A DNA stretch of 64,000 bases, taken from positions 1 through 64,000 of the forward strand of contig CANCHK010000003.1 in the NCBI GenBank assembly GCA_947377865.1, in the 5' to 3' direction. The notes beneath the pieces are model-generated. The model saw only the letters and a list, made by a program, of their open reading frames with translations. It searched no databases and had not been told where the DNA came from. Source of the stretch: Opitutia bacterium. Lineage in GTDB: Bacteria; Verrucomicrobiota; Verrucomicrobiia; Opitutales; UBA953. The position numbers and the translations under genes were made by a program. Each line of letters begins with the position of its first letter. Positions within the stretch are counted from its first letter, which is position 1. Positions 12,049-42,170 of the stretch are shown piece by piece.

Positions 12049-12074
12049 GCGGGCGGACAGGAAAGACCCGACCC

Positions 12075-12219
12075 AAGGGGAGACCGGAAACCGGAAAGGA
12101 TGCTGCGGGCCTATTTCTAGGTAGGGTTGAGCGCCCTCGCTCAACCGCGGCTGACCGAGGCGGTCAGCCCTACCCTCAGACAGACCTCAACCAATCATCC
12201 GGCTTCCGGTCTCCCTTTT
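12075..12219. repeat. Outer imperfect inverted repeat (AAGGGGAGACCGGAAACCGGAAAGGATG / CATCCGGCTTCCGGTCTCCCTTTT) enclosing a REPIN
   Basis: Arms about 12075-12102 and 12196-12219. Confidence 0.75.
12120..12174. repeat. REPIN-like element with two hairpins between GGTAGGG and CCCTACC
   Basis: GGTAGGGTTGAGC-GCCCTC-GCTCAACCGCGGCTGACC-GAGGC-GGTCAGCCCTACC. Confidence 0.85.
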
Positions 12220-12233
12220 CGTGAGTTATGCCC

Positions 12234-12263
12234 CAACCGCTAACCGCCAACCGCTAACCGCTT
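12234..12263. repeat. Degenerate heptamer array ACCGCTAACCGCCAACCGCTAACCGCT
   Basis: Direct inspection. Confidence 0.75.
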
Positions 12264-13419
12264 ACACCTTATACTCGTCCGGCATCTTCGTGCCGGAAGG
12301 ATAAATGTACGCCCGGTCCTCGAAATTACGTAGCTCGACGATCCCGTCGTGGATGGCTTGGACGTATTCCGGATTGATCGGGACCTTCCCGCCGCCGCCC
12401 GGGGTATCGATGATCAGCTGCGGGACGGCATAGCCCGTCGTGTGACCGCGGAGTGCGCGGATGATATCGATACCCTTCTGGATGGGCGCACGGAAATGGG
12501 TCGAGCCTTCAATCAGATCGCAGGCGTAGAGATAATACGGACGCACACGCATCATCAGCAGGCGATGCACGAGGGACTTCATGACCTCAGCATCGTCATT
12601 AATGCCGGCGAGGAGCACCGACTGGTTGCCGAGCGGGACGCCGGCAAATGACAGGCGTTCGCAGGCCGTGGCGAGCTCGCGGGTGACCTCCTTCGGATGA
12701 TTGGTGTGGATACTCAGCCAGATCGGGCCGTGCTTGCGGAAGACTTCGGCGAGCTCCGGCGTGATACGCTGGGGCAGGAAGACCGGGATGCGCGAGCCGA
12801 TGCGAATGAATTCGACGTGCTTGATCGCGCGGAGGCGTCCGAGGAGGGCGTCCAGCTTGGCGTCGGAGAGCAGCAAGGGATCGCCGCCCGACAGCAGCAC
12901 GTCGCGAATCTCAGTATGCTCTTCGATATACTTCAGGCCGGCTTCGAGCTCGGGATGGAAGTCATAGGCCTGCGCGTTGGAGACGAGGCGGCTGCGCGTA
13001 CAATAGCGGCAATAGGAAGCGCAGCGATCGGTCACCAGGAACAGCACGCGGTCCGGGTAGCGGTGGACGATGCCAGGGACGGGCATGGTGCCCTCTTCGC
13101 CGACGGGGTCCTCGGATTCACCGGCGGCGACGTAGGATTCCTCGATGCGCGGGATGACCTGACGACGGACCGGGCAGTTTGGATCCTTGGGGTCGATGAG
13201 GTTGAAGAAATGCGGCGTGATCGAGAGCGAGAGCTTGTGCGGGGCGAAAAGGCACCCCTCCCGCTCCTCCTTAGTCAGCTCCAGCATCTCTTCCAACTGG
13301 GCTAGGGTCGTGATGCGGTTACGCAGCTGCCAATGCCAGTCGTTCCACTCCGCGGCGGGCACGTCCTTCCATCGGCCTTGGCCGGCATGCCAGTTTTCAC
13401 GGAGGTCCTGAGGATACAT
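12262..13419 (-). CDS. KamA-family radical SAM protein (lysine 2,3-aminomutase-like)
   Basis: CASYCRYCTRSR CxxxCxxC motif; YPQDLRENWHAGQGRWKDVPAAEWNDWHWQLRNRI; LLSGGDPLLL. Confidence 0.88.
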   Translation of the reverse strand: MYPQDLRENWHAGQGRWKDVPAAEWNDWHWQLRNRITTLAQLEEMLELTKEEREGCLFAPHKLSLSITPHFFNLIDPKDPNCPVRRQVIPRIEESYVAAGESEDPVGEEGTMPVPGIVHRYPDRVLFLVTDRCASYCRYCTRSRLVSNAQAYDFHPELEAGLKYIEEHTEIRDVLLSGGDPLLLSDAKLDALLGRLRAIKHVEFIRIGSRIPVFLPQRITPELAEVFRKHGPIWLSIHTNHPKEVTRELATACERLSFAGVPLGNQSVLLAGINDDAEVMKSLVHRLLMMRVRPYYLYACDLIEGSTHFRAPIQKGIDIIRALRGHTTGYAVPQLIIDTPGGGGKVPINPEYVQAIHDGIVELRNFEDRAYIYPSGTKMPDEYKV

Positions 13420-41308: not shown

Positions 41309-41563
41309 AGGGGACACGGGTTTCGCTGGCACGGGGACAAGGTAGGGTCGGGACCGCGTCACGACATAGCTGTAATTGGGTAGGGTCGAGCATCCCTGCT
41401 CGACCGCGGCCGACCAAGGATGGTCAGCCCTACCTCGAGACATAGCTCAAAGGGAAACCGGATAGTTAGCTGGGGTAAATGTCCGCAGCATACATTCCGG
41501 TTTCCGGCCTCCCCTTGAGTTAAGCCACCCCGTGTCCCCGTGTCCACGTCCCACGTGCCCACT
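41309..41563. repeat. Composite nested element: outer GGGGACACGG/CCGTGTCCCC arrays, REP copy 41342-41370, REPIN 41380-41435, inner AAAGGGAAACCGGAT/ATTCCGGTTTCC arms
   Basis: Direct inspection of nested complementary segments. Confidence 0.8.
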
Positions 41564-41580: not shown

Positions 41581-42075
41581 TCACCTCTCCCAGATTTCAA
41601 ACGCGTACTTCAGCCCCTCATACTCACCCTCCTTCGACGAAACGAGTTTCGTAAAATAACGCTGCCAATCAGAGGGGAAGAAACGGTCGCCGTCAAAGTC
41701 GCGGTCAATGCGGGTGATGAGGAGACGTTCGCACAGCGGCAGGCCTTCGGCATAGATGCGCTCACCACCGGTGATCCAGGTCGGCCCCTGCCACTGGTCC
41801 ATGCGCTCGGCGATAATGATGGCCTCGGCTAGGGATGTCGCCTGCTCGGCACCGGGAAAGGATTTGGACGGATCACGCGAGACGACCACGGTACCCCGCC
41901 CCGGCAAAGCCTTACCGAGTTCGGCGTAGCAAGCCGGTCCTTCAATCATGACACCCCCAGCGGTCCGGTCCATGAACCAAGCCAGGTCTTCGGGAATATG
42001 CCAAGGAAGCCTGCCCTCCATGCCGATGACCCCGTTACGGGCCACGGCAACGATGCAATGAAGGGGCTTAGGCAC
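41581..42075 (-). CDS. folA: Dihydrofolate reductase (GTG start proposed)
   Basis: LHCIVAVARNGVIGMEGRLPWHIPEDLAWF; ITGGERIYAEGLPLCERLLITRI. Confidence 0.88.
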   Translation of the reverse strand: MPKPLHCIVAVARNGVIGMEGRLPWHIPEDLAWFMDRTAGGVMIEGPACYAELGKALPGRGTVVVSRDPSKSFPGAEQATSLAEAIIIAERMDQWQGPTWITGGERIYAEGLPLCERLLITRIDRDFDGDRFFPSDWQRYFTKLVSSKEGEYEGLKYAFEIWER

Positions 42076-42170
42076 GGCCCAAAGGGATGTTAATAACCCC
42101 GCCGGACGCAAGCACCAGGGAAGGCTTGGACTGATTGACACCCGCCGAAAGACTGGGGTAAGTTGACCGA

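Follow-up and report, generated by a model that had tools for sequence, protein, structure and literature searches.

REPs are small repeats thought to be moved by RAYT (REP-associated tyrosine transposase), and terminator, attenuator and mRNA-stabiliser roles have been proposed for them. In Opitutus terrae, the head-to-head dimers of GTAG-17 REPs (Di Nocera et al. 2013, PMC3733652) resemble the elements analysed here in the features described for them: the GTAG on the outside, the head-to-head orientation, the 1–2 bp between partners and the occurrence in Verrucomicrobia. The same work describes complementary stem changes and heterodimers, and it records a preference for heterodimers that has no obvious explanation, with protection from enzymes removing long hairpins as a suggestion. 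In Pseudomonas fluorescens SBW25 (Bertels and Rainey 2011, PMC3116915), REPINs are likewise two inverted REPs amplified as a unit with a cognate RAYT, but their REPs lie 71 or 110 bp apart and the pair is shown as a single long hairpin, whereas the spacer here measures 2 bp and the fold predicted to be more stable has two hairpins. In Stenotrophomonas maltophilia and Marinomonas, group 3 REPtrons (PMC8266576) also combine GTAG with a short perfect hairpin. In the part of the study of RAYT–REP coevolution available here (Nunvar et al. 2010, PMC2817692), REP-rayt-REP units likewise occur and the RAYT and REP trees agree; that part of the paper contains no loop rule or residue rule of the kind described below.

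Two elements of this kind lie in the window, the 64,000-nucleotide stretch analysed, which comes from a MAG of an Opitutae genus (2.32 Mb, 76% complete). Both have the layout G-GTAG-hairpin-2 bp-hairpin-CTAC-C, and each arm is a GTAG-type REP composed of GTAG and a 9-bp hairpin with a loop of 3–4 nt. The features discussed are as follows.

41379–41434, plus strand: head-to-head GTAG-REP dimer (REPIN) of subfamily A, loops TCCC/TCCT
41380–41405, plus strand: left REP of the 41379 dimer, GTAG with GGTCGAGCA, loop TCCC and TGCTCGACC
41408–41433, minus strand: right REP of the 41379 dimer, GTAG with GGCTGACCA, loop TCCT and TGGTCGGCC
41341–41365, plus strand: single REP-like GGTAGGGTCGGGACCGCGTCACGAC adjoining the 41379 dimer, belonging to a REP cluster at the same site in sister species
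41581–42141, minus strand: folA (dihydrofolate reductase-like), assigned by reading the open reading frame
12120–12174, plus strand: head-to-head GTAG-REP dimer (REPIN) of subfamily B, loops CCCT/CCT
12121–12146, plus strand: left REP of the 12120 dimer, GTAG with GGTTGAGCG, loop CCCT and CGCTCAACC
12149–12173, minus strand: right REP of the 12120 dimer, GTAG with GGCTGACCG, loop CCT and CGGTCAGCC
12262–13419, minus strand: kamA-like radical SAM aminomutase, assigned by reading the open reading frame
1891–1952: third GTAG-tagged dimer in the window, of a different hairpin type (GGGCGTGGC / GGGCACGAT)

The original prediction had called the element at 41379 a REPIN with a second copy at 12120–12174, and this call was borne out: each is a pair of inverted GTAG-REPs amplified together, in about 30 copies across the MAG. 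The two sequences match those that it gave, and the coordinates of the 12120 copy are exact, while those of the other, given as 41380–41435, lie one base too far right. Its 6-nt loops need redrawing, as a ninth base pair (A-T in 41379, G-C in 12120) closes a loop of 3–4 nt; the loop letters listed above follow the direction of each REP itself. The stem of the right REP of 41379 includes one T.G wobble on the minus strand, equivalent to C.A on the plus strand. Both window copies are intergenic. The 41379 REPIN lies ∼150 bp downstream of the folA stop codon, with an esterase-like gene as its other neighbor, and the 12120 REPIN lies ∼90 bp downstream of the kamA-like stop codon, with a tRNA-Arg on its other side; an Rfam search of the window returned tRNAs only. 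A second abundant inverted repeat, ∼80 bp long with ends CTCAAAGGGAGACCGGAAACCGG, is found at 41453–41519 and at 12074–12108 with 12185–12218, and dozens of whole or half copies of it are present in the MAG. The 12120 REPIN sits in the middle of this repeat, so REPINs appear to nest in it.

The pattern GTAGGG-N20-50-CCCTAC was observed three times in the window (0.04 expected), and GGTAGGG-N25-50-CCCTACC was found at 40 places in the whole MAG, representing several hairpin types, as compared to 0 for the reversed control. Copies of the family to which the window elements belong are dispersed in the genome; sister species carry hundreds, and copies are present in 37 of 55 genomes of the genus. 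A search for clean empty sites at folA and kamA yielded none; these places were occupied by another type of REP or a degraded copy, or had a partial deletion. At orthologous folA sites (L210–L236), the REP type following the common flank TTTGAG..TGTCTC varies with the species (TCCY, GGC or TGCC), with an A/B hybrid in L236 and a partial deletion in L226. REPs at these sites look as if they replaced one another at the common GGTAGGG boundary. The window elements belong to a known kind, inverted REP pairs, and are ordinary within it; since complementary stem subfamilies and heterodimers have already been reported (PMC3733652), the original prediction's "unusual for REP elements" does not hold.

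Covariation was analysed in 81 distinct sequences of the family, of which 61 are 56 nt long and form a gap-free alignment. Double changes were detected at pairs 8-25, 9-24, 10-23, 14-19, 32-49, 33-48, 35-46 and 36-45 of these 61 copies, and the first-stem difference between the window elements, GGTCGAGC/GCTCGACC versus GGTTGAGC/GCTCAACC, is compensatory, as originally proposed. As raw counts that ignore relatedness, two-sided changes occur at 8-25 in 23 sequences, at 9-24 in 21, and at the closing pair 14-19 and at 33-48 in 20 each. Local stem pairing is retained in 92 to 100% of the 61 sequences at nearly all positions, with one right-arm position at 69%. Independent support for stem covariation comes from the orthologous kamA site, where some species have TTGAGC/GCTCAA and others TTAAGC/GCTTAA, so that one stem pair differs on both sides.

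The stems of the two arms are unlike, and this affects the computed fold. With DNA energy parameters, two hairpins have the better energy in 53 of the 61 natural copies, beating a single long hairpin by a mean of 4.2 kcal/mol, whereas in homodimer controls, in which the left arm was mirrored, two hairpins are favored in 0 of 61 and the long hairpin is better by a mean of 15.9 kcal/mol. For the 41379 copy, a long hairpin is possible at −13.0 kcal/mol, as compared to −17.1 for two hairpins. These energies support, but do not prove, selection for two separate hairpins as the reason for which partner arms have unlike stems, a reason that we infer. Avoidance of one long hairpin is offered as an explanation for the preference for heterodimeric REP pairs noted in PMC3733652.

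RAYT genes were gathered from sister species and from across Verrucomicrobiota. In sister species, A-type REPs directly flank RAYTs L100 and L103/L197, and B-type REPs flank RAYTs L084, L093, L094, L138/L192, L123/L193 and L146/L196; the A-flanked and B-flanked RAYTs form separate clades with 100* support. Loop type tracks the RAYT tree, requiring 26 changes versus 61.4 in shuffles (minimum 55), or 24 versus 33.8 (minimum 29) with one RAYT per 70% cluster. RAYT L100 carries the HUH motif and the catalytic Tyr in its NP context that characterize RAYTs, scores 85.8 bits against NCBIfam REP_Tyr_transpos (cut-off 80) and matches E. coli TnpA-REP (4er8) by sequence and fold (E 1.9e-8, TMq 0.77), while L084 and L072 score just under the cut-off (77.6 and 75.9). 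Neither cognate RAYT was found in the 76% complete MAG of the window elements themselves, which reflects either incompleteness or loss, and a plasmid search for further RAYTs gave two partial matches only. The same MAG contains a different REPtron (L043, 1245–1955) with a 146-aa RAYT and GTAG-GGTCRGCAC[TGC]GTGCYGACC dimers on both sides. It also encodes larger Y1 proteins in open frames of 246 to 325 aa (L041 and L042 on contig C83, L040 on C89); these were rejected as cognate RAYTs, a GGTAGGG scan having given no match on C83 and one match lacking a hairpin on C89.

Sharing of loops between arms was quantified across Verrucomicrobiota in 31 REPtron clusters with head-to-head dimers and in 21 held-out REPtrons, 52 in all. 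In the 31 clusters, agreement of the first two loop bases is 0.75 for the arms of a dimer and 0.16 for different REPtrons (0 of 2000 permutations), and the loop-proximal pairs agree at 0.74–0.76 versus 0.26–0.33. Mid-stem agreement (0.51 versus 0.35) is above background but less so than that of the loop, and whole stems of partner arms are identical in 3% (approximately 1 of 31). The held-out REPtrons behaved alike, with loop agreement of 0.83 versus 0.21 and identical stems in 5% (approximately 1 of 21). Partner arms, whose loops agree far beyond chance while whole stems are rarely identical, therefore combine the same loop with different, internally paired stems, although loop sharing could partly come from common descent of both arms. 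The natural set in this way separates the parts that are kept (GTAG, loop and loop-proximal pairs) from a freer mid-stem.

Taken with the RAYT associations, these data make it very probable that the window elements are nonautonomous REPINs with the same loop in both arms, set by the cognate RAYT, and that they belong to two subfamilies with RAYT clades of their own. Each element is two GTAG-REP hairpins placed head to head ∼2 bp apart with GTAG outside, most likely dispersed and maintained by its cognate RAYT, which may read GTAG together with the hairpin loop and closing pairs on single-stranded DNA. If both arms are substrates of one RAYT, both must carry its loop, and inversion then makes the loops look complementary; the stem sequence would be free provided that it pairs, resulting in compensatory changes, with unlike arm stems favoring two separate hairpins over a long one. 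That the 41379 and 12120 copies differ in both stem and loop is explained by their membership of sister subfamilies, A (TCCY) and B (CCCT), which have separate RAYT clades.

The best surviving alternative, though an unlikely one, is that the elements are kept as RNA structures at transcript 3′ ends, acting as terminator, attenuator or mRNA stabiliser, and that the covariation reflects RNA function. The position of both window elements 90 to 150 bp downstream of a stop codon, the presence of other REP types at the same sites in sister species and the proposal of such roles in the REP literature are consistent with this; however, the hairpin types found at the same site in different species are unrelated, the arrangement of REPs around their RAYTs is fixed, and the loop follows the RAYT.

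Still less probable is that one arm was recently copied from the other, by palindrome-templated copying or gene conversion, and then diverged, as the original prediction had allowed. The arms are indeed similar inverted copies, and template switching inside a hairpin could produce stem double changes, but stem position 7 has a fixed opposite pair in the two arms (exactly G-C versus C-G in 55 of 61 copies), and no copy of either subfamily forms the long-hairpin pairs 12-45 and 21-36. Since the same difference, a GAGC arm against an RRCC arm, is fixed in both subfamilies, the arms diverged before the subfamilies split; together with the rarity of identical partner stems, this refutes arm copying for most copies.

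Complementarity between the two loops of an element, a further part of the original prediction, holds in part in both window copies, while position 18-39 is unpaired in most sequences (57%, with C.A in 31 of 61). The complementarity follows from the inversion of two arms whose REPs share their loop. Position 15-42 is T-A or C-G, mainly according to subfamily (A, TCCY; B, CCCT). Inside the subfamilies, one loop–loop double change was counted in each, as compared to 42 and 8 in the stems. Elements with B-type stems and GCC in both loops occur in genomes G027, G033 and G015, the first two of which also contain elements with unlike loops. The loop–loop “covariation” amounts to one difference separating the two subfamilies, one of which has a fixed mismatch, and not to maintained pairing. 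A kissing loop, in which the two loops base-pair in RNA or single-stranded DNA and are selected to stay complementary, is accordingly the least credible reading, since the complementarity in the window copies and the change from T-A to C-G at 15-42 that speak for it come down to one subfamily-level change, loop–loop double changes within each subfamily are far fewer than those in the stems, hybrids with unlike loops exist (including L236), and the arms also share their loop in dimers with REPs 20 to 75 bp apart, as do REPs on either side of a RAYT gene. An inverted pair with complementary loops can thus mimic a kissing loop.

RAYT residues were also compared with the first loop base. Across 91 screened RAYTs, one alignment column had Arg in 26 of 28 with G-first loops and in 0 of 43 with T-first loops (phi 0.94; next best column, 0.62). 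The rule was fixed before being applied to 41 new RAYTs, each with <70% identity to any used earlier. With raw loop labels, Arg was present in 13 of 13 held-out G-first RAYTs and in 1 of 28 others; restriction to RAYTs with consistent loops gave 13 of 13 and 0 of 26. The single misfit has the loop CGCCGT, readable as C-GCC-G. The combined count, for which CTCCGT-like and GTCCCT-like loops were relabeled TCC after inspection (the held-out count kept raw labels), comprises 37 G-first RAYTs with Arg, 2 without, 83 non-G without and 0 non-G with Arg. Both G-first RAYTs without Arg (L081 and L152) belong to a divergent clade of the genus of the MAG. On the tree, many branches of which have weak support, the number of changes is 15 for loop G, 13 for Arg and 15 for both together; independent pairs on supported branches number two to three in the same direction and 0 in the opposite, too few for significance.

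The corresponding residue in the RAYT of the 41379 type (L100) is Tyr53, in the last turn of the first helix (40–55) of a structure model with pLDDT 90; among known structures, the model is closest to E. coli TnpA-REP with REP DNA (4er8). Cleavage in group 3 REPtrons depends critically on one base of the loop (G13 of GCT in Sm, T13 in Mb), while contacts with the loops could only be guessed, helix α3 being suggested (PMC8266576); in contrast, the covarying residue here, Tyr53 or Arg, ends the first helix. The residue may touch the loop base, and a one-residue code is probable, in which the residue at the end of the first helix reads the first loop base, with Arg for G and Tyr or another non-Arg residue for T or C. 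Such a code, if true, would explain how both REPIN arms share a loop while their stems drift, and how related REPINs switch families when the loop changes. It is a single-residue prediction that one point mutation could test. Ordinary as the elements themselves are, both rules, on the loop and on the residue, can be tested and merit the attention of a specialist.

In several REPs with GCT or TCC loops (at L112, L121, L134, L149, L150 and L167), an A.G mismatch is kept at the third position below the loop, as in GGCGGGACC[GCT]GGGCCCGCC, reminiscent of the conserved bulge of E. coli REPs.
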